NCBI GenBank assembly: GCA_026129405.1 | Contig: JAHCID010000011.1 | Span: 62,001-126,000 of the forward strand | Source: a bacterium | GTDB taxonomy: Bacteria; Desulfobacterota; Binatia; DP-6 | DNA length: 64,000 bases | Direction: 5' to 3' | In this document: positions 25,677-50,740 of the stretch, piece by piece | Layout of the letters: each line of letters opens with the position of its first letter | Position numbering within the stretch: the first letter of the stretch is position 1 | Notes under the pieces: model-generated | The model's database searches: none | Told to the model about the DNA's origin: nothing | Seen by the model: the letters and a program-made list of their open reading frames with translations, nothing else | Translations under genes and position numbers: made by a program

Positions 25677-27043
<1,367 letters not shown>

Positions 27044-27047
<4 letters not shown>

Positions 27048-34816: not shown

Positions 34817-35358
34817 GCCGTGCCGAGCAGCGCGGGCACGAGCTCGACGATCAGGATCTGCGCCACCTCGTCCCAGCGCCCGGCGCGCTCGGCGTCGGTG
34901 AGCCGGCCGCCCACGCGCTCCAGCACCGCGACGATGCCCGCACAGCGCGGCGCCCCGCCCTCGATGACGGCGAGGTGCTGGTCGAGCTCGAGGACGAGCC
35001 CCAGATCGCGCGACGCCGTGGCGAGGAGAGCGTTCGCCGCCTGGACCTCGCCGTGCGCGAAGCCGTCCGCCGCCCGCGCCAGGCGATCGGCGATGTGGCG
35101 CAGGTGGTCGCCGATCTGCCCGCGGCGCTCGGCCGCGAACTCCACCGGCGTCAGCGTCGTCACGGCGACGGTCTCCGAGCCGGCGAGGCGCCACGCCGCC
35201 AGAGCGACGCTGTCGGTGAAGTCGGCGGCGCGGCCGTCGACCTCGACGTCGGTGATGGTGCGATCGGGGTCCACGTGCGGCACGAGGGCCTCGAGCAGCT
35301 CGCCCAGGCTCCCCGGCCGCGGCAGCGCGACGGCCGCGCCGTCAAGCGTGATGTGCAT
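34813..35358 (-). CDS. Unknown two-part protein, 181 residues
   Basis: Not recognised. It starts [20 protein letters not shown] at the ATG 35358, with GGGAGGAC 10-14 nt before it. The first about 75 residues look beta-rich, like a small beta-grasp fold ([33 protein letters not shown]). Residues 75-181 are helical ([58 protein letters not shown]). The helical tail recalls FliS-type or flagellin-associated chaperones, but this is weak. It overlaps the heptosyltransferase gene by 17 nt and the lipoprotein gene by 4 nt. Confidence 0.65.
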
Positions 35359-36952
35359 CGGTTCGTCCTCCCTGGAGCAACGTCGCGAGACGCTCGGCGC
35401 GCTCGGCGAGCCGGTCGTGCAGGCCACGGGTGGCGGCGGCGAGAGCCGGCACGTCGTCGCCGTCGAGGTTCTCCTTGTCGAAGCGCAGCACCTGGCAGAG
35501 CAGGCTCGCGGGCTCGTGCATGGCGCCGAAGCGCAGCAGCGCGGCGTCGAGCTCCTCGAGCCGGCGGGCCGCGGTCTCCAGACCCGCGAGGTCGGCCGCG
35601 TCGCGGGCCAGGGCCTCGACGCGCGCCGCCTGCGCCCGCCCTTCGCTCGCCAGCTCGGCGAGCCGCGCGAGCGTGCGCGCCTCGGCCGGCAGCGCGGCGC
35701 CGAGCGGCGCCGGCGGCGTGCCGTCGAGCTCGGCCTTCCAGAACAGCCGATAGGCGCGGCGCAGCGTCTCGGCGCGGCTCGCCGCCGCCGGCCCGAGGCG
35801 CACGGCCTCGAAGAGGCCCTCGGCGTCGAAGCCGGTGCGATACCAGGCCACGTCCGGCCAGCGCACCGAGGCCGCCGCGAGCGCCGTCCAGTCGCCAGCG
35901 CGCCGCGCCACCACCGCCTCGGCGACCGCCTCGGGCGCGAACGTGTCGCGGCAGAACGGCTCGAGGCAGGTGACGTTGTGGTCGCACGGCGCGCACGCGA
36001 CCTCGGCGTGCAGGCAGACGTGATCCGGCGCGTACGGCCCGGTGTCGAACGGCAGCGCCGGGCCGAAGAACAGCGCCACCACCGGCGTGCCGACCGCGAC
36101 CGCCATGTGCATCGGCCCGGTGTCGCCCGTCACCAGCACGTCGCAGCGTGCGAGCAGCGCCCCCAGCTCGTCCACCGACGTCCGCCCGCAGCAGTCGATC
36201 GCCAGCGGCCCGAGCGCCGCCGCGATCTCCTCGGCGACCGGCCGGTCGCCGCCGCCGCCGCAGAGGACGACGCGCGCGCCGATGCGCTCCGCGAGCAGCC
36301 GCGCCACGGCGACGAAGCGCGCCGCGGGCCAGCGGCGCACGGCGCGGCTGGCGCCGAGCTGGAAGCCGACCAGCGGCACGCCGGGCGCCGCGCCCGCGGC
36401 GGCGAGCCGCTCCGCGACGGCGGCGTGCGCGGCGGCGGGCACCCGATAGGCCAGCGCCTGCGGCCCGCGGCGCACGCCGGCGACGCGCTTGTAGTAGTCG
36501 ACGAGGTTGAACGGCGCCTGCCGGCGCTGCAGGCAGCTCGCCGAGAAGAGCCGCGACCACGGATGCGAGATCAGGCGGTGGCCGTCGCTGGTCATCGTCC
36601 AGCCGCGCGTATCGGCGACGCCGATCAGGCGCAGCAGCACGGCGCTCATCTTGGAGCTCGAGTAGTTGAGCGCGAGATCGAAGCGCTCGGCGCGCAGCGC
36701 CGTCACCAGCGCCTCGACCGTGCGGTAGGCGCCGAGGAGGTCGTCCCGCAGCATGGTGCGGCCGAGCGCGTCGAGGTCGATCGGCCAGACGCGGTCGATG
36801 CCGGGCAGGCCGTCGCAGACGGCGGCGAAGTTGCGCTCGACCACCACCGTCACGTGCGCGTCCGGGTGCTCCTCGCGCAGCCCGGCGATCGTCGGCCCGG
36901 TCTGGAGGAGATCCCCGAAGCGGGTGAGGTTCACGACCAGGACGCGCCTCAT
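35342..36952 (-). CDS. Glycosyltransferase family 9 (heptosyltransferase-like) with C-terminal helical domain
   Basis: 536 residues. Residues 1 to about 350 are a GT9 enzyme: RRVLVVNLTRFGDLLQTGPT, VVVERNFAAVCDGLPGID, GFQLGASRAVRRWPAARFVA, RVVLCGGGGDRPVAEEIAAA and LVTGDTGPMHMAVAVGTPVV, ending in the CxxCDHNVTCLEPFC-type cysteine segment common in such enzymes. The C-terminal about 170 residues are helical and charged (ARTLARLAELASEGRAQAAR) and are not typical of LPS heptosyltransferases. It overlaps the next glycosyltransferase gene by 4 nt. The location suggests flagellin or surface glycosylation. Confidence 0.88.
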   Translation of the reverse strand: MRRVLVVNLTRFGDLLQTGPTIAGLREEHPDAHVTVVVERNFAAVCDGLPGIDRVWPIDLDALGRTMLRDDLLGAYRTVEALVTALRAERFDLALNYSSSKMSAVLLRLIGVADTRGWTMTSDGHRLISHPWSRLFSASCLQRRQAPFNLVDYYKRVAGVRRGPQALAYRVPAAAHAAVAERLAAAGAAPGVPLVGFQLGASRAVRRWPAARFVAVARLLAERIGARVVLCGGGGDRPVAEEIAAALGPLAIDCCGRTSVDELGALLARCDVLVTGDTGPMHMAVAVGTPVVALFFGPALPFDTGPYAPDHVCLHAEVACAPCDHNVTCLEPFCRDTFAPEAVAEAVVARRAGDWTALAAASVRWPDVAWYRTGFDAEGLFEAVRLGPAAASRAETLRRAYRLFWKAELDGTPPAPLGAALPAEARTLARLAELASEGRAQAARVEALARDAADLAGLETAARRLEELDAALLRFGAMHEPASLLCQVLRFDKENLDGDDVPALAAATRGLHDRLAERAERLATLLQGGRTDAHHA

Positions 36953-38754
36953 GCCCGCGCCTCGCGCACGTAGAGCTCGTCGAACTGGTGGAGGAAGAGG
37001 AGGATCTGCTCGGGCTCCGAGAGGCCGCCCTCGCGGCGCAGGAGGCGCTGCACCAGGCCATCGAGCGTGAACGGCGTCGCGGCGGGCACGGTGCCGAGGA
37101 AGGCGCCCAGGGGCGAGCCGGCCTCGGCGCGCGCCACGTCGCCGGCGGTCGCGCGGCGCGGCCGCGCGCGCAGGCGCTCGGCGTCGAGCCCGCAGACGGT
37201 CTCCAGCAGGCTCGCCATGCGGTGGCGGTAGGTGTGCTCGGCGAGCACGCGGCGGCGTGCCGCCGCCGCCGTCGTCATGCGGGCGGCGGGCCGCGCGAGC
37301 CAGTCGCGCACCAGCTCCGGCAGCGCGCCGGCGTCGGCGAAGGTGACGATCTCGCGCTCGGCCGCGAACAGCGGCGGCAGCAGCGCGCGCGCGTCCGTCA
37401 GCTGGAAGGCGCCGCAGGCGGCGAGCTCGAAGGTGCGCGGGTTCACGAAGTCGCCGCGTGGATCGACGCCGTCGACCCAGGTCGACGAGTGCAGATTCAG
37501 GTTGACGGTGGTGGCGTTGAAGATGCGCACCGAATCGTCGGTGCCGATGCGCGCCCCGTCCCGCTGCACGGCCGCCTCGACGATCCCCGCCCCGCCCCAC
37601 TCCGTGCCCCAGATGCGCAGCCCCTGCTCGAGCAGCGGCCGGAACGCCAGCCGGCGGTTGCGGTAGCCGGCGCCGACGAAGCCGACCGGCGCACCCAGCG
37701 CGGCGCGCTCGTCGGCCGACAGCGCCAGCGGCCGGTGCACGGACGGATCCGCCGCCAGGGGCAGGTAGTGCGCGCGCCCGCCGGTGGCGGCGCGCAGGTC
37801 GTCCAGAAACGTCCCCTGCTGGATGACGAAGAAGTGGTCGCAGGCCGGCGCCAGATCGCGCCAGTACGGGAACAGCCGGTGGTCCTCGACGAACCAGAAC
37901 GCGCGCAGCGCGCCGCGCTGGCCGATCTCGTGCAGCACGGCGGCGTCGACCGGCGCCTGCGCCATGCACAGCACGAGGTCCGGCTGCGCCGCCTCGACGG
38001 CGGCGAGGATGCCGGTCGCGAGGAAGCGCCCGAAGGCGCTCCGCACCACCCGGCGCGCGCCGGCGCTGGCCGTGAAGCGCGGGATGGCGTCCATCCCTGC
38101 CGCGTACGGCGCGAGGTCGAGCACGACGACGTCGTGGCCGAGCTCGCCGAGCGCGCGCGCACAGTAGAACGTGATCGGGTGCGAGCCGCCGCCGACGGGC
38201 GAGACGACCAGCACCCGCAGGCGCAGCCCGGCGAGCAGCGCGCGGGCCCCGAGCCGCTCGCGCGCGCCCTGGAGCGCGGCGCCGCCGCGCAGCAGCGCCG
38301 GCGCGTACGGGCAGAGCGCGAAGGCTCCCCAGGCGTCGAGCACCTCCGCCGCCGGCGCCTCGCGCAGCAGCATCGTGCGCGCCAGCACCGCGGTGAGATC
38401 GCGCGCGGCGAGCGCCGTGCGCACGAGCCGCAGGTCGGGCTCGACGACCACCACCGGCCCGTCCCATGCCGCACCCAGCGCCTCGACGTGCCAGCCGAGC
38501 CCGAAGCCGAGCACCACGGCCGTCGCACGCGGGCCGAGCGGCTCCAGGCGCGCCCGTTGGCCCTGCGCCCAGCGCACGCCGTCGCGGCGCGGGTCGCGGG
38601 CGTTGTGGAGCAGCACGCCGCCCGCGGTGAGCGTCGCATCCCCGCTCGGGGCGAGCACCGGCGCCTCGGGCAGCGGCGCCGCGGCGCGCACCAGCTCGGC
38701 CAGCGCCGCGTCGCGCGCGAGCGCGCGCAGGTTGGCTTCGAGGAACGCGCTCAC
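36949..38754 (-). CDS. CgeB-type glycosyltransferase with N-terminal methyltransferase-like domain
   Basis: 601 residues from a GTG at 38754. The N-terminal part (about 70-150: ATAVVLGFGLGWHVEALGAA, VVVVEPDLRLVRTALAARDL) resembles the Rossmann domain preceding DUF115/Maf-type flagellin glycosyltransferases. Residues about 180-500 are a CgeB/YkvP-type transferase (VLVVSPVGGGSHPITFYCAR, FWFVEDHRLFPYWRDLAPAC, GFVGAGYRNRRLAFRPLLEQ, IFNATTVNLNLHSSTWVDGV, RTFELAACGAFQLTDARALL). The C-terminus is helical. Such proteins occur in flagellar glycosylation islands. It has its own sigma-54 promoter. Confidence 0.85.
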   Translation of the reverse strand: MSAFLEANLRALARDAALAELVRAAAPLPEAPVLAPSGDATLTAGGVLLHNARDPRRDGVRWAQGQRARLEPLGPRATAVVLGFGLGWHVEALGAAWDGPVVVVEPDLRLVRTALAARDLTAVLARTMLLREAPAAEVLDAWGAFALCPYAPALLRGGAALQGARERLGARALLAGLRLRVLVVSPVGGGSHPITFYCARALGELGHDVVVLDLAPYAAGMDAIPRFTASAGARRVVRSAFGRFLATGILAAVEAAQPDLVLCMAQAPVDAAVLHEIGQRGALRAFWFVEDHRLFPYWRDLAPACDHFFVIQQGTFLDDLRAATGGRAHYLPLAADPSVHRPLALSADERAALGAPVGFVGAGYRNRRLAFRPLLEQGLRIWGTEWGGAGIVEAAVQRDGARIGTDDSVRIFNATTVNLNLHSSTWVDGVDPRGDFVNPRTFELAACGAFQLTDARALLPPLFAAEREIVTFADAGALPELVRDWLARPAARMTTAAAARRRVLAEHTYRHRMASLLETVCGLDAERLRARPRRATAGDVARAEAGSPLGAFLGTVPAATPFTLDGLVQRLLRREGGLSEPEQILLFLHQFDELYVREARA

Positions 38755-38813: not shown

Positions 38814-38829
38814 AGCATGCGGCGTGCCA
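38814..38829 (-). promoter_or_regulatory. Sigma-54 promoter for the CgeB/heptosyltransferase operon
   Basis: Minus-strand TGGCACG-N4-ATGCT has the full -24 element including the following G and one mismatch in the -12 element. The predicted start near 38803 leaves a 48-nt leader. Confidence 0.6.
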
Positions 38830-38880
38830 TGTACCCGGCGCGCGGTCGGGCGCACGCGCGCCGCCGGACGGTGGTCCGGG

Positions 38881-38894
38881 GTCAGGACGTTGAC
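38881..38894. promoter_or_regulatory. FleQ-like activator box
   Basis: GTCAGGACGTTGAC is an exact GTCA-N6-TGAC palindrome, 51 nt upstream of the sigma-54 core at 38814-38829. It overlaps the stop codon of the upstream glycosyltransferase gene. Confidence 0.5.
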
Positions 38895-40231
38895 GCTGCC
38901 GCGCCGCCGCCCTGACGGTCGTCGTCCGCCGCCGGCGGCGGCGCCGCCTGGAGCTCGCGCAAGCCGTCGCGCACGCCGCTACCCGCGGGATGCCCGGGAT
39001 GCGCGGCGCACAGCGCCTCGGCCGCGTCGTAGGCGCGGGCGAGCGCCCCGCACTGCACCAGCGTGTCGATGTAGGCGAGATGGTCGGCGACGCCGCCGCC
39101 GTTGGCGACGACCCAGCCGAGCTGCGCCTCGGCGCGCGCCACCTCGCCGCGCTCGAGCGCGACCAGCCCGAGCACCGCGCTGCGGTCCGGCTCGTCCATC
39201 GGCCGGCGCAGCGCCAGCGTCTCGGCCTCGGCGAGATACGCGCCGCGGAGCGCGCGCGCGAGCGCGAGCGCCGCCGCCTGCGGCACCTTCGCCGCGTAGC
39301 GCGTGCACCAGTCGGCGAGCGCGCAGTAGGCCCGCGCCAGCCCGGCGTGGCGGATCGGCGCCGGCCGCCGCGGCGGCGCGCTCGCCGCCATCGCGAGCAC
39401 CGTGGCCGCCCGGTGCGACTCGAGATGCCGCGCCCGCACCGCCTCGCAGCCGCGCGCCGCGATGCGGGCGCGCGCCGGCTCGTCGGCGAGGAAGCGCTCG
39501 GCCAGCGCGACGAGGCCGCCGACGTCGCCGCGCTCGTAGGTGACGAGGTGCTCGCCGTCGCCGAACAGCTCCGGCAGCCCGTTGCCGGTGCGCTCGGTCA
39601 AAAGGAGCGCGCCGCTCGCCATGGCCTCGAAGACGCGCGCGTTGAGATCGCCGCGCACGGTCTGGTTCAGCACGATGCGGCTGCGCGCGAAGATCTCGGC
39701 GTACGGCCCCTGGGCCACGTGCAGCGGCAGGCGGGTGCGCAGCGCGTCCAGCAGGGCCACCCGCTCGGGGTGGAAGCGCGCGTCGAGCGAGCCCACGAAG
39801 GCGATCTCGTGTGCGAGCGTGCCGCCGGCGCGCGGCAGGTCGTCGGGCGCCCACAGCGGCAGCCACGCGGTGCCGCTCGCGCCCGCCTCGGCGAACATCG
39901 GCAGCCAGTCGCGCTGCGCGACCAGCGCGACGTCGGCGGCGCACGCGAGCGGCGCCTGCCAGAGGCCGTGGTGGTGCGCATCGACGGAGAGGAAGACGAG
40001 CGGGCACGGTGCGTCCTCGAGCCCGAGCACGGCGAGCGGCCGGCTGTCGTCGCCGAGCACGATGAGGTCCGGGGTCCATCCCGCCGGCAGCGCCGCGAGG
40101 ACGTCGCGCAGCGGCGCCGCCGCCTGCGCCTGGCGGAGATCGTGGTGGGCGTGCGGTCCCCACGCCAGCACCTCGTGCTCGCGACGCCAGCGTTCCCGGA
40201 AGTAGGGCGCGTGCAGCTCGAGGATTCGCAT
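38882..40231 (-). CDS. CgeB-type glycosyltransferase with TPR-like C-terminus
   Basis: 449 residues. I chose the ATG at 40231 (MRILELHAPYFRERWRREHE) with GGAGGT upstream over an ATG at 40261. Glycosyltransferase features: APCPLVFLSVDAHHHGLWQA, IAFVGSLDARFHPERVALLD, FARSRIVLNQTVRGDLNARV and FEAMASGALLLTERTGNGLP, i.e. the CgeB/GT1-like C-terminal acceptor motif. The C-terminal about 130 residues form TPR-like helices (RSAVLGLVALERGEVARAEA, YIDTLVQCGALARAYDAAEA). Probably acts with the other transferases on a surface or flagellar glycan. Confidence 0.85.
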   Translation of the reverse strand: MRILELHAPYFRERWRREHEVLAWGPHAHHDLRQAQAAAPLRDVLAALPAGWTPDLIVLGDDSRPLAVLGLEDAPCPLVFLSVDAHHHGLWQAPLACAADVALVAQRDWLPMFAEAGASGTAWLPLWAPDDLPRAGGTLAHEIAFVGSLDARFHPERVALLDALRTRLPLHVAQGPYAEIFARSRIVLNQTVRGDLNARVFEAMASGALLLTERTGNGLPELFGDGEHLVTYERGDVGGLVALAERFLADEPARARIAARGCEAVRARHLESHRAATVLAMAASAPPRRPAPIRHAGLARAYCALADWCTRYAAKVPQAAALALARALRGAYLAEAETLALRRPMDEPDRSAVLGLVALERGEVARAEAQLGWVVANGGGVADHLAYIDTLVQCGALARAYDAAEALCAAHPGHPAGSGVRDGLRELQAAPPPAADDDRQGGGAAASTS

Positions 40232-40435: not shown

Positions 40436-40451
40436 CGGCATGTCGCTTGCT
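40436..40451 (+). promoter_or_regulatory. Sigma-54 promoter for the radical-SAM genes
   Basis: CGGCATG-N4-TTGCT keeps both invariant pairs and the full -12 element. The predicted start near 40462 leaves a 23-nt leader containing GGAGGG. The 18 bp at 40435-40452 recur exactly at 50724-50741. Confidence 0.6.
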
Positions 40452-40484: not shown

Positions 40485-41936
40485 ATGAAGATCCTGCTGA
40501 TGGACCCGCCCTGGTATCGCTTCCAGCAGAACGCGAACCAGCCGTATGCGAGCCTCGGGCTCACCTACTGCGCGGCGATGGTGCGCGAGCAGCACGACGT
40601 CGTGGTCTACAACCCCGACCTCACGCCCGCCGGCGAGCTGAACCAGTACGACGTCGAGATGGACGGCTACCAGGACTACCTGGCGGCCTCGAAGGACCCG
40701 GGCCACGAGGTGTGGGAGGAGGTCCGCGACGTCATCGCCGACTTCGCGCCCGACGTCGTCGGCATCCAGGCCCGCACGGCGTCGTTCCCCGCCGCGGTGC
40801 AGGCGGCGAGCGTCGCCAAGGCGATCCGGCCCGACGTCCTCACGGTCGTCGGCGGCCCGCACCCGACGCTGGTCCCGAGCGATCTCGGGCACCCCGGCAT
40901 CGACGTCTTCGTGCACGGCGAGGGCGAGATCACCTTCCAGGAGCTGGTCGCCGCGCACGCCGCCGGCGCACCGCTGCGCGACGTCCCCGGTCTCGCCTGG
41001 AAGGCGCCCGACGGCTCGATCCACACCGGTCCGCCGCGCGCCAACTACCCGACGCTCGACGCCCTGCCCTTCCCCGCCAAGGACCGGATCCTGTTCGACG
41101 AGCTGATGGAGTCGGACGGCTACTGCACGCTGATGTTCTCGCGCGGCTGCCCGTACCGCTGCACCTTCTGCTCGTCGCCGCAGGTGTGGTCGCGCAAGGT
41201 GCGCTGGCGCTCGCCGGAGAACATGGTCGCCGAGATGGTCCACACGCAGCGGACGTGGGGCACCGAGTTCTTCAGCTTCCAGGACGACACCTTCACGACC
41301 AACCGCAAGCTCGTCCACGCCCTCTGCGACCAGATCATGGCGCGGAGCTGGGACGGCGCCTTCCGCTGGGTCTGCAACACCCGTCCCGAGCTGCTCGACG
41401 ACGAGCTGGTCGGCCACATGAAGGCCGCCGGCTGCCGCGCCATCGCCATCGGCGTCGAGAGCGGCAACGACGAGGTGCTGAAGCAGATGAAGAAGGGCTT
41501 CACCGCCGACGACGTCCGCCGCGCCGCCGACATCCTGCGCCGCCACGACGTCGTGCTGTCGTCGCAGTTCATGATCGGGCTCCCCTACGAGTCGCCCGAG
41601 CAGATGTGGGACACGGTGAAGCTGATGGAGGAGATCTCGCCCGTCAGCGTCATGCTGTCGGTGGCGACGCCCCTCCCCGGCACCGAGCTGCACGCGCAGG
41701 CGAAGGCGCTCGGCTACATCGGCGACGATCCCGACTGGACCACCGTCACCACCAAGAACGACGGCATGCTCTTCCGGCGCGACATCCCGCCGGACGAGGT
41801 GACGCGCACCATCCAGGAGATCCGTGCCCGCTTCGACGCCCAGCAGCGCGCCAAGGCGGAGGAGAAGTACCGCTACAGGAAGCTGAAGCCCGGCTACGGC
41901 TTCGGCAACGACCGCCCGCCGGCGGAGGAGCAGTAG
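40485..41936 (+). CDS. Radical SAM protein with N-terminal B12-binding-like domain (1)
   Basis: 483 residues. The N-terminal Rossmann-type domain is of the B12-binding radical-SAM family (FAPDVVGIQARTASFPAAVQ, LTVVGGPHPTLVPSDLGHPG, VFVHGEGEITFQELVAAHAA); I do not see a DxHxxG cobalamin-His motif. The radical-SAM cluster motif CPYRCTFC has Cys at about 222, 226 and 229, followed by SPENMVAEMVHTQRTWGTEF and IAIGVESGNDEVLKQMKKGF. Such proteins are often methyltransferases or other C-C/C-P modifying enzymes; the substrate is unknown. GGAGGG precedes the ATG; the second gene follows after 3 nt. Confidence 0.9.
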   Translation: MKILLMDPPWYRFQQNANQPYASLGLTYCAAMVREQHDVVVYNPDLTPAGELNQYDVEMDGYQDYLAASKDPGHEVWEEVRDVIADFAPDVVGIQARTASFPAAVQAASVAKAIRPDVLTVVGGPHPTLVPSDLGHPGIDVFVHGEGEITFQELVAAHAAGAPLRDVPGLAWKAPDGSIHTGPPRANYPTLDALPFPAKDRILFDELMESDGYCTLMFSRGCPYRCTFCSSPQVWSRKVRWRSPENMVAEMVHTQRTWGTEFFSFQDDTFTTNRKLVHALCDQIMARSWDGAFRWVCNTRPELLDDELVGHMKAAGCRAIAIGVESGNDEVLKQMKKGFTADDVRRAADILRRHDVVLSSQFMIGLPYESPEQMWDTVKLMEEISPVSVMLSVATPLPGTELHAQAKALGYIGDDPDWTTVTTKNDGMLFRRDIPPDEVTRTIQEIRARFDAQQRAKAEEKYRYRKLKPGYGFGNDRPPAEEQ

Positions 41937-41939
41937 GCG

Positions 41940-43409
41940 ATGCGCGTCCTCCTCGTCTTCCCGCCCAGCGTGGCGACGGAGACCACCGCCGGCTTCATCA
42001 GCGTCGGCCAGCCGCTCGGCGTCTCGTACCTCGCCGCGGCCGCACGCGAGGCCGGCCACGAGGTGGCGATCCTCGACGCGCTGGAAGAAGGGTTCGTGGA
42101 GGGTGTCGAGCGCCCGACGCGCGAGCCCTATCCCGTGCAGCGCGTGTCGGCGGGCTTCGCGCAGCGCGTGCCGCTCGGGCCGCCCTACCCCGAGGGCAGC
42201 TTCACGGTCGGGCTCACCGTCGACCAGGTGATCCGCCGCGTGCAGGATTTCCGGCCCGACGTGGTCGGCGTGTCGTGCATCTTCACCAGCGTCGCGCTCA
42301 TCAGCCACGAGATCTGCCGCCGCGTGAAGGCCCTCGACCCGCGCATCGTGACCGTCATGGGCGGCACGCACCCGTCGGGCCAGCAGAAGGAGACGCTCAC
42401 CCGCGACGGCGGCGTCGACTACGTCTGCTGGGGCGAGGGCGAGGCGGCGTTCGTGGCGCTGCTCGCCGCGCTCGAGCGCGGCGAGCAGCGCCCGGCGATC
42501 CCGGGCATCTGCTTCCGCGACGACGCCGGCCAGCCCGTGCTGAACCCGCCGAGCTTCACCACCGAGCTCGACGCCATCCCCTTCCCCGCCTTCGACCTCC
42601 TGCCGATGGAGCGCTACTTCAACACCGCGGCCGAGGGACGCATCGTCAAGATGATCACGTCGCGGGGCTGCACCTACAACTGCAGCTTCTGCTCCGTGCC
42701 CTACATGAGCCAGCGGACGTTCCGCGTGCGCTCGCCCGAGAACGTGCTCGCCGAGATCGACCGCTGGGTGGGCAGCTACGGCATCCAGGGCATCATGTTC
42801 GAGGACGACAACCTCACGCTGAACGTGAAGCGCGCCCACGCGCTCTTCGAGGGCCTCGCCGAGCGCGACTACGGCCTCAAGCTCTACGCGCGCAACTTCC
42901 GCGCCGACCTCTTCGACCTGCACATGCTGAAGACCATGCGGCGCGCGGGCTTCGACGTCATCTGGATCACGCCGGAGAGCGGCAACCAGCAGATCCTCGA
43001 CGAGGTCATCGACAAGAAGTTCGATCTGCGCGACGTCGACGACAGCGTCGTCCTCATGAAGGAGGCGGGGCTGCGCGTCGGCGCGGCGTTCGTGCTCGGG
43101 CTACCCGAGGAGTCGCGCAGCGACATCAACGACACCGTGGCCTACGCCCGCAAGCTGAAGGGGCTCGGCGTCGACCATTTCTGGTTCTCGATCGCGACCC
43201 CGATCGCGGGCACACGTCTCTACGACACGGCGATGGACCTCGGCCTGATCCAGGGCGTCGACCTCGAGCACTTCAGCTACTACGAGGGCCAGCTCTCGAC
43301 CGCCGAGTGGAACGCGCAGGAGCTGGTCCGCCTGCGCAACGACCTGATGGACGAGCTGAACGGCTACCACCGGCACGTGCTCCCGGGCGCGCAGTCGGCG
43401 GGGCTCTGA
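41940..43409 (+). CDS. Radical SAM protein with N-terminal B12-binding-like domain (2)
   Basis: 489 residues, same family as its upstream neighbour but clearly diverged. N-terminal domain MRVLLVFPPSVATETTAGFI, RPDVVGVSCIFTSVALISHE, VTVMGGTHPSGQQKETLTRD and YVCWGEGEAAFVALLAALER; cluster motif CTYNCSFC with Cys at about 244, 248 and 251; then MFEDDNLTLNVKRAHALFEG and IWITPESGNQQILDEVIDKK. The pair probably catalyses successive or alternative steps on one substrate. Followed after 14 nt by a sulfotransferase-like gene on the same strand. Confidence 0.9.
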   Translation: MRVLLVFPPSVATETTAGFISVGQPLGVSYLAAAAREAGHEVAILDALEEGFVEGVERPTREPYPVQRVSAGFAQRVPLGPPYPEGSFTVGLTVDQVIRRVQDFRPDVVGVSCIFTSVALISHEICRRVKALDPRIVTVMGGTHPSGQQKETLTRDGGVDYVCWGEGEAAFVALLAALERGEQRPAIPGICFRDDAGQPVLNPPSFTTELDAIPFPAFDLLPMERYFNTAAEGRIVKMITSRGCTYNCSFCSVPYMSQRTFRVRSPENVLAEIDRWVGSYGIQGIMFEDDNLTLNVKRAHALFEGLAERDYGLKLYARNFRADLFDLHMLKTMRRAGFDVIWITPESGNQQILDEVIDKKFDLRDVDDSVVLMKEAGLRVGAAFVLGLPEESRSDINDTVAYARKLKGLGVDHFWFSIATPIAGTRLYDTAMDLGLIQGVDLEHFSYYEGQLSTAEWNAQELVRLRNDLMDELNGYHRHVLPGAQSAGL

Positions 43410-43423: not shown

Positions 43424-44653
43424 GTGCCGGATCTCGCGCAGCCCACGTCCGACGCGTCCGCGGGCGCCCTCGTCGAGGCCGGCTGCGCGCTGCTGAAGAC
43501 GTATCGGCTGGACGACGCGATCGCATGCTTCGAGCGGGCGCTATCCGCGCCCGAGCAGCGCGTGCTCGCCTGCTCCGGGCTGGTCTCGGCGCTGATCGCA
43601 GCGCGCCGGCTCGAGGCCGCGACCGACGTCGTGAGCCGCCAGCTCGCCCTCCACGGGCAGTTCCAGGCTCCGTCGGTCGACGACCTGTGCAACCGGTTGC
43701 TGTGGGCGGGCCGACACGCCGAGGTGGCGCAGTTCCTCACGGACAACCCGTCGATCTTCGGCTACCTCGCTTCGCACGAACCCGACGGCTACCACGTCGA
43801 CGCGCTCCTCACCTATGCGAGCGAGATCGACCCGGCGCTCGGACACGTGTTCGGCGACCTCTACGCCCAGATCGCCGGCCGTCCGTTCGCCTACCCGGAG
43901 CAGCTGCTCGCCGAGCCGGTGGACGGCCGGACCGAGCTGCTCTTCGCCGCCCATCCGTACGCGGGCGGCTCGGCGTTCGTGAATCTCCTCCTGCTGCTCG
44001 GCGTACGGGTGGACGAGTGCGGTCGCCGCCATCGCCTCCTGGGCGCCCTCGACGACGGCCACGACGTCTGGACGCTGCGCGACGCGCCCGACGTGCTCCC
44101 CGCGCGACTCCTCCAGCGCGTCACGATCTTCCGCCGGGACGTGCGCTGCTACAGCTTCTCGCATCGCCTCCCCGCTCCGAGCGCTCTGGTGGGGCGGCGT
44201 GCGGTGTTCGTGGTGCGCGACCCGCGTACGGCGCTCGCGGCCCGCGCGAAGCCGACCCGCGACCTGGTGGAGAGCGGGACCTTCGCCCGCATGGCCCAGC
44301 ACCAGGCCCAGGACTGGTGCGACTTCGTCGACGGCATCGCGCACGTTCCCGGCGCGCTGGTGATCCGCTTCGAGGACTGGAAGGCCGATCCGACGGCCAC
44401 GGCACGGCGCGTCCTGGCCTTTGCCGACCTGGACCTACGGCCGTCGCTCCTGGCGGAAGCGGTGCACTGGTCGGGGACCGAGGTGGCACGCCGGCTGCGC
44501 GCCGCCGTGCGCCCGGTCACGGCCGACGCGGCTCCCGTCACGACCGAGCCGCCCGCGACCGACCTCGACCGCGAGTATGCGCTGGTCGAGGCGGTGTGCG
44601 GCCCACGGCTCGGCCGCTACGGCTACGATTCGCGCCCGGCGCCCGCGCCGTAG
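43424..44653 (+). CDS. TPR plus sulfotransferase-like protein
   Basis: 409 residues from a GTG at 43424, preceded by a GGGGGG stretch. The first about 110 residues form TPR-like helices (AGCALLKTYRLDDAIACFER, LSGLVSALIAARR-like). From about residue 165 the sequence fits a P-loop sulfotransferase: LLFAAHPYAGGSAFVNLLLL (PAPS 5'-phosphate loop position), VVRDPRTALAARAKPTRDLV (3'-phosphate motif RDPR), and GALVIRFEDWKADPTATARR (FEDWKADP, typical of Sulfotransfer_1/3). It could sulfate a glycan. Assignment rests on motifs only. Confidence 0.75.
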   Translation: MPDLAQPTSDASAGALVEAGCALLKTYRLDDAIACFERALSAPEQRVLACSGLVSALIAARRLEAATDVVSRQLALHGQFQAPSVDDLCNRLLWAGRHAEVAQFLTDNPSIFGYLASHEPDGYHVDALLTYASEIDPALGHVFGDLYAQIAGRPFAYPEQLLAEPVDGRTELLFAAHPYAGGSAFVNLLLLLGVRVDECGRRHRLLGALDDGHDVWTLRDAPDVLPARLLQRVTIFRRDVRCYSFSHRLPAPSALVGRRAVFVVRDPRTALAARAKPTRDLVESGTFARMAQHQAQDWCDFVDGIAHVPGALVIRFEDWKADPTATARRVLAFADLDLRPSLLAEAVHWSGTEVARRLRAAVRPVTADAAPVTTEPPATDLDREYALVEAVCGPRLGRYGYDSRPAPAP

Positions 44654-44669: not shown

Positions 44670-45237
44670 TCATCGCGCCCCGGGCGCCGGGGGCGTGAGC
44701 CACCAGCGCCCGGGCTCGAGCGCGATCGCCGCGAACGGCTCGGCCCGCACGGCCATGCTGCCGCCGTGCACGGCGGCGGCGATCCACCGGCCCGCATCGA
44801 GCCGAAGGACCTCGAGCGTGCGGGCCAGCGGATCGATCAGCCAGAGGTGTGAGACGCCCTCGCCGGCATAGATGGGCAGCTTGCGGGTTCGGTCGATGGT
44901 GGCCGTGGCGGGAGAGAGCACCTCGCAGAGCCAGTCGGGCGGCAACGTGAACGCCGCCACGTCCGGCACCTCGGGCATGCGCTCGATGCGCCATGCGGCG
45001 AGATCCGGGACCAGCACGTCCTCTCCGAGGTGCAGCTCCGGCTCGTCGAGGAACCACCAGCCGCCGAGCGGACCGTCGAAGCGCCCGCCGAGGTCGACCC
45101 CGAGCCGGGTCGCGACCCGGGCGTGCGGGGCCGCGGGGCGCGCAGACGTGAGCAGCTCGCCGCCCAGGAGCTCGGCCACCATGTGATCCGGGACCGCGAG
45201 CAGATCCCGATACGTCGCGTGGGGGCGTGGCGCTCAT
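44670..45237 (-). CDS. Uma2-family (DUF820) endonuclease-like protein, with frameshift
   Basis: The long frame from 45182 starts MVAELLGGELLTSARPAAPH, and the core WWFLDEPELHLGEDVLVPDL, AAWRIERMPEVPDVAAF, PDWLCEVLSPATATIDRTRK and LPIYAGEGVSHLWLIDPLAR is the PD-(D/E)XK-type Uma2 domain. The usual TYRDLLAVPDH just before it is present in frame, but reaches the ATG at 45237 (MSATP) only if one C is removed from the C5 run at 45221-45225 (plus strand GGGGG). I therefore place the start at 45237. Uma2 proteins are common, often multi-copy, with unknown cellular role. Confidence 0.8.
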
Positions 45238-45368: not shown

Positions 45369-46142
45369 CTAGTGCAACGTGCCCCGCCGCCGCACCGTCC
45401 ACGCCCGCGTACGGTACGGAACCAGGATGCGCTCCATCCCCGCGATCTCCTCGGCGACGGCGGCGAGGACGCGCGTGAAGCGCTCCGGGCCCGCCTGGGC
45501 CTGGACGTCGTTCACCGAGCGCCACGCACCGAGGTACCGCTCGGGCGTCATCTCGACGGCGTGCGGCGCCTCTACGAAGAGCGGCGCCTCGAACCGTCCG
45601 CTCGCGACCAGGCGCTCCTCCAGGCCGACCGTGTAGCGACTCGCGCCCGACGAGACGCGCGACAGCTCGGGGACGATCGCCCGAATGCGCGCTTCGATGG
45701 CGGCGTGCAGCGGGCTGGCGTCGAGGTCGCGCGGGTTCCAGAGCGCGGTGAAGAAGCCCCCGGGACGCAGGATGCGATGGAACTCGGCGAGCGCGCGCGG
45801 CGCGTCGGTCCAATGGAAGGACGACCCCATGAGCACCCAGTCGACGCTCGCCGCCGGCAGCCCGGTCTCCTCCGCGGACCCCGCGCACCAACGGAACGCC
45901 CCACGATCGCCGAGCAGGCGCAGGCCTTCGGCCCGCATGGCGGCGTTCGGCTCGATCGCGAAGCCGCCGAGGCCCAGATCGAGCAGGTTCTCCGTGAGCT
46001 TTCCGGTCCCGGCGCCCACGTCGGCGACCACCCGCGCTCCGGCGTGGGCGACGAGCAGCCGCAGAACGCGGTCGGAGTAGCCCGTGCGATGGACGTAGCT
46101 CTTCGCGAGCGCGGTGAAGTCCCCGGGCGTGACGGTACTCAT
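45369..46142 (-). CDS. SAM-dependent methyltransferase of the phosphoramidate operon
   Basis: 257 residues. A class I Rossmann methyltransferase with motif I RVVADVGAGTGKLTENLLDL (about 38-57), GFAIEPNAAMRAEG (acidic residue of motif II), VLMGSSFHWTDAPRALAEFH and RILRPGGFFTALWNPRDLD. By position, last in an operon of phosphoramidate genes, it is the counterpart of the Campylobacter methyltransferases Cj1419/Cj1420, which O-methylate the phosphoramidate. The start at 46142 overlaps the kinase stop by 4 nt. Motifs alone do not fix the substrate. Confidence 0.82.
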   Translation of the reverse strand: MSTVTPGDFTALAKSYVHRTGYSDRVLRLLVAHAGARVVADVGAGTGKLTENLLDLGLGGFAIEPNAAMRAEGLRLLGDRGAFRWCAGSAEETGLPAASVDWVLMGSSFHWTDAPRALAEFHRILRPGGFFTALWNPRDLDASPLHAAIEARIRAIVPELSRVSSGASRYTVGLEERLVASGRFEAPLFVEAPHAVEMTPERYLGAWRSVNDVQAQAGPERFTRVLAAVAEEIAGMERILVPYRTRAWTVRRRGTLH

Positions 46143-46690
46143 GGCGATGCCTCCCCGGCGGCGCCGACGAGGCCCAGCCCCGCCGCCCGCTGCATGATGA
46201 CGTCCACGGCCGTGCCCACCTCGAGCGGCGCCGCCCCCTGGTCGAGCACGAGGTCCGGCTCCGCGGGCTCGTCGTAGGGGAGATCGACCCCGACCACGCC
46301 GCGGACGCGGCCGGCCAGCGCCGCCCGGTACAATCCCTTCGCGTCCCGGCGCACCAGCACCTCGAGCGGCGCCCGCAGGTAGACCTCCAGGTAGCGGGCG
46401 ACGTGGCGCCGGTTCCAACGCCGGATCTCGTGGAACAGCGACATGGTCGCGCAGACGACGAGCGACCCTTCGTCCGCGCGCGCCGCACAGTACGCAGCGA
46501 TGCGGCGCGCGTTCAGGAGCCGTCCCTCCAGATCGTGCCCGACGTCGGCGCCGGTGAGCGCGCGGAACACGTCGCCGTCGACGAGTGCCGCACGCGCGTG
46601 CCCGTGGGCGCAGAGCCGCTCGTACACCGCCCGCGCGATGGTCGACTTGCCGGCGCCGGAGAGGCCGGTGATCCAGACGACACCGCCCAT
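46139..46690 (-). CDS. APS-kinase-like cytidine diphosphoramidate kinase (Cj1415-like)
   Basis: 183 residues, homologous to adenylylsulfate kinase: Walker A GLSGAGKST at residues 9-17, ALVDGDVFRALTGADVGHDL, ARRIAAYCAARADEGSLVVC, YLEVYLRAPLEVLVRRDAKG and LYRAALAGRVRGVVGVDLPY. A sulfate assimilation role is unlikely because no cysD/N/H genes are near. The operon instead matches Campylobacter Cj1415, which phosphorylates cytidine diphosphoramidate at the ribose 3' position. ATG 46690 overlaps the upstream stop as TGATG. Confidence 0.82.
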   Translation of the reverse strand: MGGVVWITGLSGAGKSTIARAVYERLCAHGHARAALVDGDVFRALTGADVGHDLEGRLLNARRIAAYCAARADEGSLVVCATMSLFHEIRRWNRRHVARYLEVYLRAPLEVLVRRDAKGLYRAALAGRVRGVVGVDLPYDEPAEPDLVLDQGAAPLEVGTAVDVIMQRAAGLGLVGAAGEASP

Positions 46691-47463
46691 CACGGCCGCC
46701 AGTCGTGGCTCCATGCCTCGCCCGCGCGGCGCTCGTAGAGCCGGACGTCGGACTCCCGGTCGACCTCGCACCAGCGACCGTCGACCGGCACGGCGAGCAC
46801 CGGCTGGCCCGCGGCGATGAGCGCGCGCAGGAGCGACGTCATGTCGAGGCGGTCGCCGGCCGGACCGTCCAGCGCCGCCACCAGCCGTGCGATGTGCGCG
46901 AACGCCGCCGGCGCGATGCGGAGCAGGCCCATGTACTGCCCGTCGGTCGCGTCGAGGCGCGGACGCGGGCGGCCGATGTCGACGACCCGACCCTGCGCGT
47001 CGACGCGAAAGCTCTCCGCGTCGCCGGCCGGATCGTCGAACCGCTCGCGCCACAGCGCCCGCCAGAGGCGATCGTAGGCGATGGCCAGGTCCGCGTCGGC
47101 CGCGGCGAGGGCGGCGACGGTGTCGGGATGGTAGACGATGTCTCCATAGGCGACGATGCACGTCTCGCGCGCCAGCCACGGCGCCGCGCAGAGGAGCGAG
47201 CGCACCATGTTGGTCGTCGCCCAGCGCGGATTCTCGAAGCTCGCGAGCCCCGGCCGGGCGAGCTGCTCGCCGCGGTAGCCGCGCACCACGGCGATCTCGA
47301 TCACCCCGGCGGCCCGGAGCGCGTCGCATTGCCAGTCGAGGAGCGCGCGCCCGGCGAGCGGCGTGAGGCACTTCGGACGCGCGTCCGACAGCTCCCCCAT
47401 GCGCGCCCCTCGCCCCGCGGCCAGGATGACCGCCCGGCGTACGCCGCCGCCCGTTCCGGTCAC
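46690..47463 (-). CDS. Nucleotidyltransferase, CTP:phosphoglutamine cytidylyltransferase-like (Cj1416-like)
   Basis: 257 residues. Sugar-phosphate nucleotidyltransferase fold: AVILAAGRGARMGELSDARP with KCLTPL (residues about 11-35), then YGDIVYHPDTVAALAAADAD and a C-terminal IGRPRPRLDATDGQYMGLLR, DMTSLLRALIAAGQPVLAVP and the WCEVDRESDVRLYE ending. In the Campylobacter pathway Cj1416 couples CTP to L-glutamine phosphate. GTG 47463 overlaps the amidotransferase stop; ATG 47481 is an alternative start. Confidence 0.82.
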   Translation of the reverse strand: MTGTGGGVRRAVILAAGRGARMGELSDARPKCLTPLAGRALLDWQCDALRAAGVIEIAVVRGYRGEQLARPGLASFENPRWATTNMVRSLLCAAPWLARETCIVAYGDIVYHPDTVAALAAADADLAIAYDRLWRALWRERFDDPAGDAESFRVDAQGRVVDIGRPRPRLDATDGQYMGLLRIAPAAFAHIARLVAALDGPAGDRLDMTSLLRALIAAGQPVLAVPVDGRWCEVDRESDVRLYERRAGEAWSHDWRP

Positions 47464-48110
47464 GCCGGAAGTCCCAGCCATCGCCGCACGAGGCGACGAT
47501 CGGCGTCGCGGACGGCGCCGCGCTCCGGATGCCACTGCAAGGCCACGATGGGCGCGTCGCGGTGGTACACGCCCTCGACGATGCCGTCGTCCGCCACGGC
47601 GAACTCGCGCAGCCCGTCTGCCGCCGTGCCCTGCGCGACGGCGAAGCGATGGTAGGAGTTGACCTCCAGCCGCGCCCCGCTGGGCCGCCCGTACGGGGCG
47701 CCGTCCGTGATCGTGACCGCGTGCGTGCGGGCCAGATGGCCGTCCCCGGCGCATGCCGTCAGCGGACCACCGAGCCAGTGCTGAACGACCTGGAGGCCGC
47801 GGCAGACGCCGATCACTGGAACCCCGCGGGCACAGGCGTCCTCGAGCAGGCACGTCTCGGTGCGGTCGCGAACCGGCTCGGTTGCGAGATCGTTCCCGCC
47901 GCTCAGCAGGTAGGCGTCGAGCTGCCAGCGCCGCACGAGGTCCACGACGCCCTCGCCCACGTTCGCGATCGGCATCCAGGCGACCTCGGGCAGCACCGCG
48001 GCCAGGAAGCGCGACCAGTCGTGCGCCAGCGCGTCGCGCCGCTCGCCGTGGCCGGCGGCATGCTCCACGCGCATGGTGACACCGATGCGGCGCACCCGCG
48101 GCTCAGCCAC
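47460..48110 (-). CDS. Class I glutamine amidotransferase-like hydrolase (Cj1417-like)
   Basis: 216 residues. GATase1/gamma-glutamyl hydrolase fold with an intact triad: Cys103 in VIGVCRGLQVVQHWLGG, His194 and Glu196 in VALQWHPERG. LLSGGNDLATEP matches PuuD-type hydrolases. In Campylobacter, Cj1417 hydrolyses gamma-glutamyl-CDP-amidate to release glutamate and cytidine diphosphoramidate. The ATG overlaps the stop of the glutamine-kinase-like gene by 8 nt. Confidence 0.84.
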   Translation of the reverse strand: MAEPRVRRIGVTMRVEHAAGHGERRDALAHDWSRFLAAVLPEVAWMPIANVGEGVVDLVRRWQLDAYLLSGGNDLATEPVRDRTETCLLEDACARGVPVIGVCRGLQVVQHWLGGPLTACAGDGHLARTHAVTITDGAPYGRPSGARLEVNSYHRFAVAQGTAADGLREFAVADDGIVEGVYHRDAPIVALQWHPERGAVRDADRRLVRRWLGLPA

Positions 48111-50562
48111 GCAGCGGCCTCACGACCCGAGCGCCGCAGTCGAGCTCCACGCGCCCGGCCGCCACCACCCGCTCGAAGAGCTGCTCGCCGACGCCGATCG
48201 CCGCCGGCAGGCCGATCTCCGCGCAGCGAATCGCCATGTGCGAGTTCGTGCCGCCGAACCGTGTGACGAGCCCTGCGATGTCCCGGGTGAAGATCCAGTC
48301 GAACCCCGGATCCGCGTTCTCGATGCACACCACCGCGCGCGCCAGCCCGTCGCTGCGGAGCGAGCGGCTGTCCAGCCGGACGACGGCCGCCTCCACGGCC
48401 CGCGCGGTCACGAAGTTCGGCTGACTGCGGTGCGCCGGCACGACGTAGAGGTCGTGCGCGTCGCGCACGAGATGTCCGAGCCGCACGGCATGGCCCACCT
48501 CGGCGCTTCGGCGCCGCAGGGCGATCAGCTCCCGCAGGTACTCGTCGCGATCGCTCACGGAGGGGCTCGTCACCTGATCGGCGATCTCCTCGACGCACAG
48601 CCAGGACAGCTCCTCGCGCGACAGGTCGAGCCCTGCCCCCCAGCGCGCGATCTCTTCGAGGGCGTCAGACAGGTGGCGCGTGAAGACGAACTTCGCGTGC
48701 TCGCGGCCGGTGACCGCCTGGCGCGCGTAGCGCAGCAGCGTGCGGGCGTCGACGCCGTCGAGCCCGGCCTCCTGGAGCAGGGCATCGAGCGCCGCGACCT
48801 CCGCGGGCCCGAGGACGAACGGCGGGCGTGCGAGCTCGCGGGCCCGCGTCCCCGCAGCGGCGAAGAGATCCGGGCGCTGATCGTAGCGCAGCGACGCCAG
48901 ATCGTACGTACCGGGCCGCAGATGGCCGTAGCGCCGGAGAAAGACGTCGGGCGCGAGGGTGCCGCCCAGCACGGCGTCGAAGTCGGCCGTGAGCCGACTC
49001 GTCACCGTCTCGAGCGACGCCTTGAAGGCCGCGAGCCGCTCGGGCGCCAGGGCCTCCCGCTCGACGGCGGAGCGCAGGAGCGCCTCGGCGACGAAGGCGT
49101 GGCGCGCGATCACCGCGAAGGGATGGGTCCCGAGCCGGCGGCATTCCCGCAGGAGAGCCGTGAGGCGCCACGGGCCGGGCTCGCCCGCACCCGCCGCACG
49201 CTGGCGGTACGCCAGGCGCTCGATGCACGCCGTCGCGCGGGCCAGCGTGCCGTCGGGCCCGAGCGACACGCAGCGCCGCGTGAGCGCGGTCAGGCGCGCC
49301 GCATAGTCCACGAGCTCGCCGGCGCGCAGCACACCGGGGTAACGCTCCCGAACCGCGGCGTCGAACCCGAAGTCGCGCACGGTGGTGGCGACGGCGAACT
49401 CGACCTTGTCGTGCAGCTCCGGGTTGGCGGCGAGGCGATCGAGCCAGGCGTCGACGAGACGATCCTCCACCGTACGCTCGAGGCCGCGGGGCAGGAACGA
49501 GTTGAAGCTGTTGCGCACGTCGACGTACGGACGTCCCGCGAGCGAGACCATGAGGCATTCCCCGGGAACCGCACGGTAGCCCATGGCGACGCGGGCCGCG
49601 CGCCAGGTGCGATCGGTCACCAGCCGCCGATAGAGCGAGGTCGCCAGCGGCCGCGGGTGCGTGCCGAGGATCTCCGCGGGATTCCAATCGGGCATCTGCC
49701 CGAGGATCGTGCGGGAACCGGCGATGGCGGCGCGCGGCGCCGAGCGCTCGGCGACGAAGCGCTCGATGCGGCGCAGGGACTCGGAGACGCGGACCGCGAT
49801 GAAGCGATCCCAGGACGCGCAGGCGGCGATGCGACGCACCTGGAGCACGAACACCCGGCCGTCGCGCGTACGCGCGAACTCGATGTCGAGGGGCAAGCGG
49901 CGCCCGCACAGATCCTCGACCTCACGCGCCGTTTCGACCAGCGCGGCGACCCGCTCGGACTCGATGTAGCCGGGGAGCGACTCGTGGTGCACGGACAGGG
50001 TCTTGTTGACGCCCACTCCGCCCGTCACGCGGTCGGTCCGCCCCGATTCGTCGTCGTAGTTGATGACGTAGTACGGGGCGCCGGTGTCGAGCGCGTGGGT
50101 CATGAGAACGCCGCTCAGCACGACGTCCGCGACCATGCGCTGGACCAGCACCTGGTCCTCGCCGCTGCCGCCGTAGGATGCGATCACCTCCTCGACCGCG
50201 GCGCGGACGGCGCCGGCGTCGCTGCCGTCCACTCCGAGACACGAGCGAAAGCTGCCCGCCATGGACGCCCGTACACCGTCCTCGACGCGCGCGCTGGAAC
50301 GAACCGCGAGTGGTGCCCCACCGAAGCGCACCTGGATGGCCGCAACCCAGAACGCGCTCCCGTCGCGCCATGCCCCGACGGTGAAGTGCAGCCCATCGGG
50401 AACCACCGAGCGGCGCAGGAGCGGCCGCAGGCGTTCGAGCGTCTCCGCCTTGCTGCCGAGGACATCGACCGTCCCCGCAAGGCGTGCCGCCGCACCGCCG
50501 CCGCCGCGCGACGCCGACGGCCCCGGATCCGCCTGCCCGGACGCGTGCACCTCGCCCTCCAT
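48103..50562 (-). CDS. PEP-synthase-like L-glutamine kinase (Cj1418-like)
   Basis: About 819 residues. N-terminal ATP-binding region of the PPDK/PEP-synthase fold (DVLGSKAETLERLRPLLRRS, GAPLAVRSSARVEDGVRASM, ASYGGSGEDQVLVQRMVADV, FARTRDGRVFVLQVRRI), a long central region, and a C-terminal phosphohistidine swivel domain with VTRFGGTNSHMAIRCAEIGL, His at about 775. Cj1418 of Campylobacter has this architecture and phosphorylates the amide of L-glutamine. The ATG at 50562 has no Shine-Dalgarno; GTG 50550 has GGAGG five nt before it and fits the predicted sigma-54 start, so it may be the true start. Confidence 0.85.
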   Translation of the reverse strand: MEGEVHASGQADPGPSASRGGGGAAARLAGTVDVLGSKAETLERLRPLLRRSVVPDGLHFTVGAWRDGSAFWVAAIQVRFGGAPLAVRSSARVEDGVRASMAGSFRSCLGVDGSDAGAVRAAVEEVIASYGGSGEDQVLVQRMVADVVLSGVLMTHALDTGAPYYVINYDDESGRTDRVTGGVGVNKTLSVHHESLPGYIESERVAALVETAREVEDLCGRRLPLDIEFARTRDGRVFVLQVRRIAACASWDRFIAVRVSESLRRIERFVAERSAPRAAIAGSRTILGQMPDWNPAEILGTHPRPLATSLYRRLVTDRTWRAARVAMGYRAVPGECLMVSLAGRPYVDVRNSFNSFLPRGLERTVEDRLVDAWLDRLAANPELHDKVEFAVATTVRDFGFDAAVRERYPGVLRAGELVDYAARLTALTRRCVSLGPDGTLARATACIERLAYRQRAAGAGEPGPWRLTALLRECRRLGTHPFAVIARHAFVAEALLRSAVEREALAPERLAAFKASLETVTSRLTADFDAVLGGTLAPDVFLRRYGHLRPGTYDLASLRYDQRPDLFAAAGTRARELARPPFVLGPAEVAALDALLQEAGLDGVDARTLLRYARQAVTGREHAKFVFTRHLSDALEEIARWGAGLDLSREELSWLCVEEIADQVTSPSVSDRDEYLRELIALRRRSAEVGHAVRLGHLVRDAHDLYVVPAHRSQPNFVTARAVEAAVVRLDSRSLRSDGLARAVVCIENADPGFDWIFTRDIAGLVTRFGGTNSHMAIRCAEIGLPAAIGVGEQLFERVVAAGRVELDCGARVVRPLRG

Positions 50563-50724: not shown

Positions 50725-50740
50725 CGGCATGTCGCTTGCT
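50725..50740 (+). promoter_or_regulatory. Sigma-54 promoter for the zinc-finger gene
   Basis: CGGCATG-N4-TTGCT, identical in all 16 bases to the element at 40436-40451. The predicted start near 50751 leaves a 65-nt leader. Confidence 0.6.

Follow-up and report, generated by a model that had tools for sequence, protein, structure and literature searches.

Can a bacterium far removed from Campylobacter make an activated phosphoramidate, and if so, what would move it onto a surface glycan? The question is raised by five genes in a 64,000-nucleotide stretch of the genome of a bacterium from the class Binatia (Desulfobacterota), namely positions 62,001 to 126,000 of the forward strand of contig JAHCID010000011.1 (assembly GCA_026129405.1; "the window" hereafter). 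An earlier note, made from the sequence alone, had read them as a complete operon for O-methyl phosphoramidate (MeOPN) biosynthesis beside a flagellar cluster. By analogy with Cj1415-1418 of Campylobacter jejuni, the core of this operon very probably makes an activated phosphoramidate, with catalytic steps that are predicted from gene families. A protein of sulfotransferase fold encoded close by is a candidate for its transfer. The broadest proposition is that a widespread, sulfation-like phosphoramidate pathway uses loop-altered sulfotransferase-fold enzymes to decorate surface glycans, here within a sigma-54 flagellar regulon, and its chances may be about even. The five overlapping minus-strand genes between 50562 and 45369 have the order and coordinates first claimed for them, and Pfam and NCBIfam agree with the claimed families:

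48103..50562, minus strand: K, PRK05849/NF004508 kinase (NF004508 857 bits), putative Cj1418-type L-glutamine kinase
47460..48110, minus strand: G, C26/GATase hydrolase (Peptidase_C26 88 bits), gamma-glutamyl-CDP-amidate hydrolase-like
46690..47481, minus strand: N, MobA/LicC-like nucleotidyltransferase (NTP_transf_3 74.5 bits), putative CTP:phosphoglutamine cytidylyltransferase
46139..46714, minus strand: A, homologue of adenosine 5'-phosphosulfate (APS) kinase (NF004041/PRK05541 165 bits), putative CDP-amidate 3'-kinase
45369..46142, minus strand: M, S-adenosylmethionine (SAM) methyltransferase (Methyltransf_11 58 bits)

With these start codons, themselves predicted, the genes run K, G, N, A, M from 5' to 3' with successive overlaps of 8, 22, 25, and 4 nucleotides. 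K might begin at the ATG at 50562 or at a GTG at 50550 that is preceded by GGAG.

One clue to the function of the operon is the kinase, which is present as a single copy in the genome. In an NCBIfam profile search the K score lies far above the NF004508 cut-off of 501 bits, the next family reaches 47 bits, and the match extends across positions 10-788 of the 789 in the model. Cj1418 is presumably a member of PRK05849 as well. The swivel-domain His775, in the motif GGTNSHMA, is kept in at least 93% of 83 relatives. A PEP (phosphoenolpyruvate) synthase was also considered and rejected, all models of that family scoring below 50 bits. The other core enzymes point the same way. G has the intact Cys-His-Glu triad previously ascribed to it (Cys103-His194-Glu196), kept in at least 93% of 70 relatives. 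N combines its NTP_transf_3 match with a LicC-like motif in which N84/N91-M92/L96 are conserved, and has a weak Protein Data Bank match to the CTP:phosphocholine cytidylyltransferase 1jyk.

The fourth enzyme needs more care because it resembles a kinase of sulfate assimilation. A exceeds the NF004041 cut-off (127 bits) and carries an APS_kinase domain with the P-loop GLSGAGKST and DGD motifs. Against PF01583, scores are 167-249 bits for the canonical APS kinases that the same genomes encode and mostly 80-131 for the operon copies. In a tree the canonical enzymes stand apart from the operon copies, the exceptions being one genuine APS kinase near an operon and two mislabelled sulfotransferases (L011 15492 and L042 14718, initially labelled APS kinase), which account for the long branches. 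The canonical segment SPYR..RVR has its Pro in 19 of 19 sequences, whereas most operon copies have Leu, Ile or Met together with a downstream Asn; in the window A it reads SLFHEIRRWNR. A separate canonical APS kinase is encoded elsewhere in the genome, on contig C1. The identification of A as a plain APS kinase was rejected on its profile scores, the tree and its lack of the SPYR signature, and as judged by sequence A is distinct from the APS kinases of sulfate assimilation. K and A thus fall outside both the PEP synthases and the APS kinases, the groups whose membership would have spoken against the earlier reading. As a separate observation, the genome containing locus L016 has, outside the kinase operon, a second APS-kinase-like gene (G063:C64:33987-34967, 130 bits) with a sulfotransferase-like gene right next to it.

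How would these enzymes work together? K would convert L-Gln to N-phospho-Gln and N would couple this to CMP, giving a CDP adduct. G would then strip off glutamate to leave CDP-amidate, and A would phosphorylate its 3'-OH. The resulting 3'-phospho-CDP-amidate would be a structural analogue of 3'-phosphoadenosine 5'-phosphosulfate (PAPS), the sulfotransferase donor. The gene families and their conservation support a core of the Cj1415-1418 kind. What they do not support is the word "complete". In C. jejuni, Cj1415-1418 make 3'-phospho-CDP-amidate and only these four are assigned to its synthesis, Cj1419/1420 being without assigned function (PMC11800397), so that O-methylation in the present bacterium is a guess. 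M may add an O-methyl group or may methylate a sugar; it, and perhaps radical SAM proteins too, would modify the phosphoramidate or its acceptor.

The core is not confined to this organism. The window K was scanned against one genome per species and the best 80 of 349 candidates were taken as loci. These belong to Verrucomicrobiota, Acidobacteriota, Lentisphaerota, Omnitrophota, Planctomycetota, Chlorobiota, Bacteroidota, Thermodesulfobacteriota, Pseudomonadota and others, and none of the best 80 of 349 is from Campylobacterota. In most of the 80, K is co-located with other core genes, a conservation far above chance. Clustering of neighbouring open reading frames (ORFs) places the nucleotidyltransferase, the hydrolase and the APS-kinase homologue each in about 70 of 81 loci, many of which are on truncated contigs. 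A 2022 review still called glutamine kinase C. jejuni-specific (PMC9561416). The sequence comparison suggests, however, that the family is widespread across many phyla. Closer to home its distribution is patchy, since the kinase is absent from six relatives of the same family and present in six genomes of the same class (including a fragmented copy in G050).

Not all of these operons are alike. Among 84 typed loci, 31 have the methyltransferase family of the window (M type), 36 have instead a formyltransferase-like or SGNH-like module (F/H type) and 17 are untyped. Culturable bacteria with an M-type operon include Thalassobaculum fulvum and Oceanibacterium hippocampi. The window K shares its clade (support of 99 in the SH-like approximate likelihood-ratio test, SH-aLRT) with operons of M type or of no assigned type from Verrucomicrobia, Acidobacteria and its own class. 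In F-type operons (L014, L015, L017, L019, L020, L024-L027, L029, L032, L033, L043-L046, L048 and others) the methyltransferase is replaced by a formyltransferase-like protein and a protein of about 190 amino acids without a Pfam match, often with a CDP-glycerol glycerophosphotransferase-like neighbour. They may make a formylated phosphoramidate or one with another N-substituent. H-type operons (L049:14338, L060, L062, L071:12896, L075, L077, L081) encode a protein of about 405-430 amino acids that has a GDSF-like motif (SGNH-type, by eye) and no Pfam match, and usually a second methyltransferase. A further arrangement occurs in the same class as the window: L083, L111, and L112 read radical SAM, sulfotransferase-like, K, N, A, M, with the C26 hydrolase absent. 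In the L083 genome, NF045546 matches do not exceed 29 bits. Because the hydrolase is lacking, the glutamyl group may remain attached in such systems.

What, then, transfers the phosphoramidate? The earlier note had recognised no transferase. This was probably wrong, since a gene adjacent to the operon encodes a sulfotransferase fold and has relatives within the same operon type. It forms a unit with two upstream genes, separated by gaps of 3 and 14 nucleotides:

43424..44653, plus strand: S, tetratricopeptide repeat (TPR) and sulfotransferase-fold protein (Sulfotransfer_3 22 bits, E 2e-4), candidate phosphoramidate transferase
40485..41936, plus strand: R1, B12-binding radical SAM protein (B12-binding and Radical_SAM)
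41940..43409, plus strand: R2, B12-binding radical SAM protein
44670-45182, minus strand: Uma2-family (putative endonuclease) gene, between S and the operon

S lies directly 3' of the two radical SAM genes, with the operon ending 0.7 kb away. Over residues 168-406 its AlphaFold model resembles PAPS sulfotransferases: the Foldseek match to Teg12 with PAP has E 6e-6 and probability 1.00, and VIA gives Z 12.1 over 191 residues. On the strength of this model, S is predicted to have the fold of a PAPS sulfotransferase. An iterative search with full-length S drifted to TPR proteins, and first-round matches and Pfam results were used. When about 1,350 neighbourhood genes were searched with the single sequence, the genes recovered, TPR-only matches apart, are direct neighbours of phosphoramidate operons: those of L012, L009, and L013 and, with a weaker match, that of L065. 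For the Gal-3-O-sulfotransferase-like protein of L083 the predicted structure (two sequences) has a predicted local distance difference test (pLDDT) score of 36, and no fold is claimed for that group.

The residues that bind the donor provide another clue. In PAPS sulfotransferases a Lys or Arg in an N-terminal loop (PKSGTT, PRSGTT) holds the 5'-phosphosulfate and an Arg (RxPxD) holds the 3'-phosphate. The loop Lys/Arg is found in none of 10 operon-linked copies as against 15 of 16 controls (p 2e-6), these being sulfotransferases elsewhere in the same genomes with strong Pfam matches and a bias toward canonical loops, which counts against the reading proposed here. The replacement is Y in the window S and P, S or N in the other operon copies. 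The 3'-phosphate Arg is kept in 10 of 10, as RDPR in the window S. This is the pattern expected of an enzyme that would bind a 3'-phosphonucleotide with a transferred group other than sulfonate, and S is not classed as a sulfotransferase in function.

Genomic association is consistent with this idea. Genes up to two positions from M-type cores were compared with genes of the same loci at a distance of 4-8 positions. Near the cores no Pfam family is as frequent as Sulfotransfer_1 (9 of 96 genes, one hand-added after mislabelling), Gal-3-O-sulfotransferase adds four more and every sulfotransferase family is found in at most 1 of 130 far genes (Fisher p about 8e-5, or 0.005 with a stricter count). 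In the Verrucomicrobial operon L016, moreover, APS_kinase (114 bits) and Sulfotransfer_1 (92 bits) domains are naturally fused in the A gene (L016:9834-11279), which links donor synthesis with transfer; a second sulfotransferase-like gene lies further on, at 12084. S would thus move the phosphoramidate from 3'-phospho-CDP-amidate onto a glycan hydroxyl and release 3'-phospho-CMP. We lean towards such S-type transfer with this predicted donor. Nor is S the only recurrent neighbour. Radical_SAM is found in nine near and four far genes around M-type cores, and B12-binding radical SAM genes lie beside the M-type operons of the window (40485-43409), L005, L016, L042, L069, L070, L083, and L110-L112. 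These proteins reach no NCBIfam equivalog cut-off and have distant similarity to P-methyltransferase families among others. In F/H-type operons the neighbours are instead PF04464 glycerophosphotransferase-like proteins (14 of 123), which suggests that a protein of this type is the alternative transferase in the second class of operon.

When would the operon be expressed? The claim of a sigma-54 promoter has gained support from the following elements:

50595-50580, minus strand: sigma-54 -24/-12 box TGGCACCCGCCTTGCT, exact, 18 nucleotides upstream of the K ATG
25677..27044, minus strand: FlrC/FleQ-type response regulator with sigma-54 activation domain (Sigma54_activat 232 bits)

The window contains three exact TGGCACN5TTGC sites where 0.03 are expected. 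Genome-wide, the sigma-54 16-mer pattern occurs 23 times and the reversed pattern twice, and 3 of the 23 are in the window (p 0.002). RpoN is encoded in the genome. The box, RpoN and the activator together make sigma-54 control of the operon likely. It may not be peculiar to this organism, as perfect boxes (TGGCACGGCACTTGCT, TGGCACGACACTTGCT, and TGGCACGACTCTTGCT) stand upstream of the kinase operons of L005, L016, and L028 (the first two from Verrucomicrobia, the third from Desulfovibrio), which suggests that sigma-54 control recurs in other phyla. Pfam confirms flagellar genes in the window (FlhA, FlhB, FliI, FliG, FliF, and FlgE, in addition to the sigma-54 activator), but the supposedly neighbouring flagellar cluster ends about 18 kb from the operon.

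Two further observations concern sigma-54-like sequences. An identical 16-mer, CGGCATGTCGCTTGCT, occurs on the plus strand at 40436-40451 and 50725-50740, ahead of the radical SAM-S unit and of a small zinc-ribbon-like ORF (50816-51211), respectively. At 27975-33800 on the minus strand, a PAS/HAMP histidine kinase shares a single open frame of 1941 codons with a distinct AMIN/TPR part; an exact sigma-54 box (30590-30575) separates the two, which are probably different genes.

The acceptor is the least certain part. The window also encodes three glycosyltransferases:

35342..36952, minus strand: GT9 (heptosyltransferase-family) glycosyltransferase (Glyco_transf_9 118 bits), in the same unit as the next gene
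36949..38754, minus strand: CgeB-like glycosyltransferase (Glyco_trans_1_2 122 bits), with a one-mismatch sigma-54 box (38829-38814) 60 nucleotides upstream
38882..40231, minus strand: CgeB-like glycosyltransferase (Glyco_trans_1_2 84.5 bits)

Weaker sigma-54 boxes lie ahead of the glycosyltransferases at 36949-40231 and also of the radical SAM-S unit. A search for KpsC/KpsS (PF05159) that was positive in E. coli and B. subtilis gave no match in the genome (completeness 100). This bears out the suggestion that the acceptor is something other than a Kps-type capsule. Another contig (C10; L115:9511-19999) carries genes for flagellin and for FliD- and FliS-like proteins, and after them come genes resembling PseB, PseC, NeuB, PseF, and PseG (identified by eye and from cluster labels). 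These pseudaminic-type genes suggest a nonulosonic acid on flagellin, although the Maf flagellin transferase (PF01973) has no match in the genome. Because of the sigma-54 boxes, the lack of KpsC/KpsS and the pseudaminic-type genes beside flagellin, a flagellar-regulon (flagellin) glycan is the leading guess, and a tentative one. Sigma-54 would then drive expression of the pathway with the flagellar regulon, and the most likely destination of the phosphoramidate would be a glycan of the flagella or elsewhere on the surface, not a Kps capsule.

Taken as a whole, the explanation put forward here (the core, S-type transfer, expression with the sigma-54 flagellar regulon and a surface-glycan acceptor, with catalysis, donor and acceptor all predicted) is somewhat favoured. 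Several observations do not fit it well. The best NCBIfam model for G is indeed the Cj1417-type family NF045546 (GCDPHdlase), as anticipated, yet the score is 85 bits and the cut-off 250; none of 12 related genomes searched passes that cut-off, the best reaching 110 bits. G is therefore not classed as an NF045546 equivalog, though with its catalytic triad intact it may have a similar activity. S is on the strand opposite to the operon with the Uma2-family gene in between, matches Pfam with just 22 bits and has a mean model pLDDT of 67. Three Desulfovibrio genomes with M-type operons (L028, L037, L054) have no PF00685 (Sulfotransfer_1) match anywhere, so S-type transfer is not universal. Flagellar genes were seen beside the operon in none of the other loci examined.

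What if the core makes the donor and S is merely an ordinary sulfotransferase or an unrelated neighbour? A CgeB-like or GT9 protein or a distant Cj1421/1422 homologue would then carry out the transfer. The divergence of S and its position outside the K operon would be explained, as would the Desulfovibrio M-type operons without a PF00685 protein and the Glyphos_transf-like neighbours of F-type operons. The Cj1421/1422-type transferases, of 592-603 amino acids, were themselves originally annotated as glycosyltransferases (PMC13317227, PMC9561416). However, an ordinary S would not account for the enrichment of sulfotransferases beside M-type cores, the L016 kinase-sulfotransferase fusion or the loss of the phosphosulfate-loop Lys/Arg in all 10 operon copies, and we regard this alternative as unlikely.

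Doubt can also be directed at the chemistry itself. Perhaps the acceptor used by the kinase is some other amide or phosphate and something other than a phosphoramidate is made, as might be argued from assays of family members that, as far as found in the literature, are confined to Campylobacter, from the low score of G and from the same-class operons without G. Yet many phyla retain all four Cj1415-1418-type families as a group, with the catalytic residues conserved, and K covers nearly the whole of the NF004508 model; different chemistry from the same families is quite improbable. More improbable still is a sulfation cluster, with A as an additional APS kinase, S as a PAPS sulfotransferase and K, G, and N as an operon unrelated to them. 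A does match APS kinase families and S does have a sulfotransferase fold, but the genes identified beside A include no ATP sulfurylase, and A lacks the SPYR signature, stands apart from the APS kinase of its own genome and is embedded between N and M with overlaps of 25 and 4 nucleotides. Nor does S have the loop Lys/Arg. The preferred reading, a Cj1415-1418-type core with S-type transfer, is thus retained. With regard to the earlier note, the core was read correctly, the methyl step too confidently, and the transferase was overlooked.

How does the proposed pathway compare with systems already described? In August 2025 the mechanism by which capsule is decorated with methyl phosphoramidate was still described as future work (PMC12409886), and no explanation of how the tag is attached was found in the literature accessible to search. 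The present comparison suggests a pathway in many phyla and names a candidate transferase family, marked by a residue-level signature and in L016 naturally fused to the A-type kinase. If true, it would join the very rare P-N chemistry to the familiar logic of sulfation, and possibly to flagella.

S resembles PAPS sulfotransferases (Sulfotransfer_1/3; Teg12, StaL, SULT) in its fold, in the 3'-phosphate Arg of RDPR and in being partnered by a homologue of APS kinase that should produce a 3'-phosphonucleotide, but the 10 operon-linked copies lack the phosphosulfate-loop Lys/Arg and are placed with phosphoramidate genes. Likewise, A shares the P-loop GLSGAGKST, the DGD motif and the APS_kinase domain with CysC, and differs in having SLFHE..WNR for SPYR..RVR, a separate position in the tree and co-location with the glutamine kinase family. 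The CDP-glycerol glycerophosphotransferases (PF04464), neighbours in F-type operons, belong to a family that transfers a phospho-group from a CDP donor; none is found beside the window operon. Outside Campylobacter, too, surface glycans with a P-N modification have a precedent: the lipopolysaccharides of Xanthomonas campestris and Shewanella, as cited in another article, carry phosphoramidate, in their case unmethylated (PMC3907429).

The closest parallel is the MeOPN capsule pathway of C. jejuni. There, too, kinase, cytidylyltransferase-like, C26 hydrolase and APS-kinase-like genes lie together with a methyltransferase nearby and in a surface-glycan setting, a likeness drawn via family profiles. 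Unlike that pathway, which has the transferases Cj1421/1422, the window operon is found outside Campylobacter, lacks Kps capsule genes, has a sigma-54 box and a flagellar neighbourhood, and is accompanied by a sulfotransferase-fold candidate with radical SAM partners.

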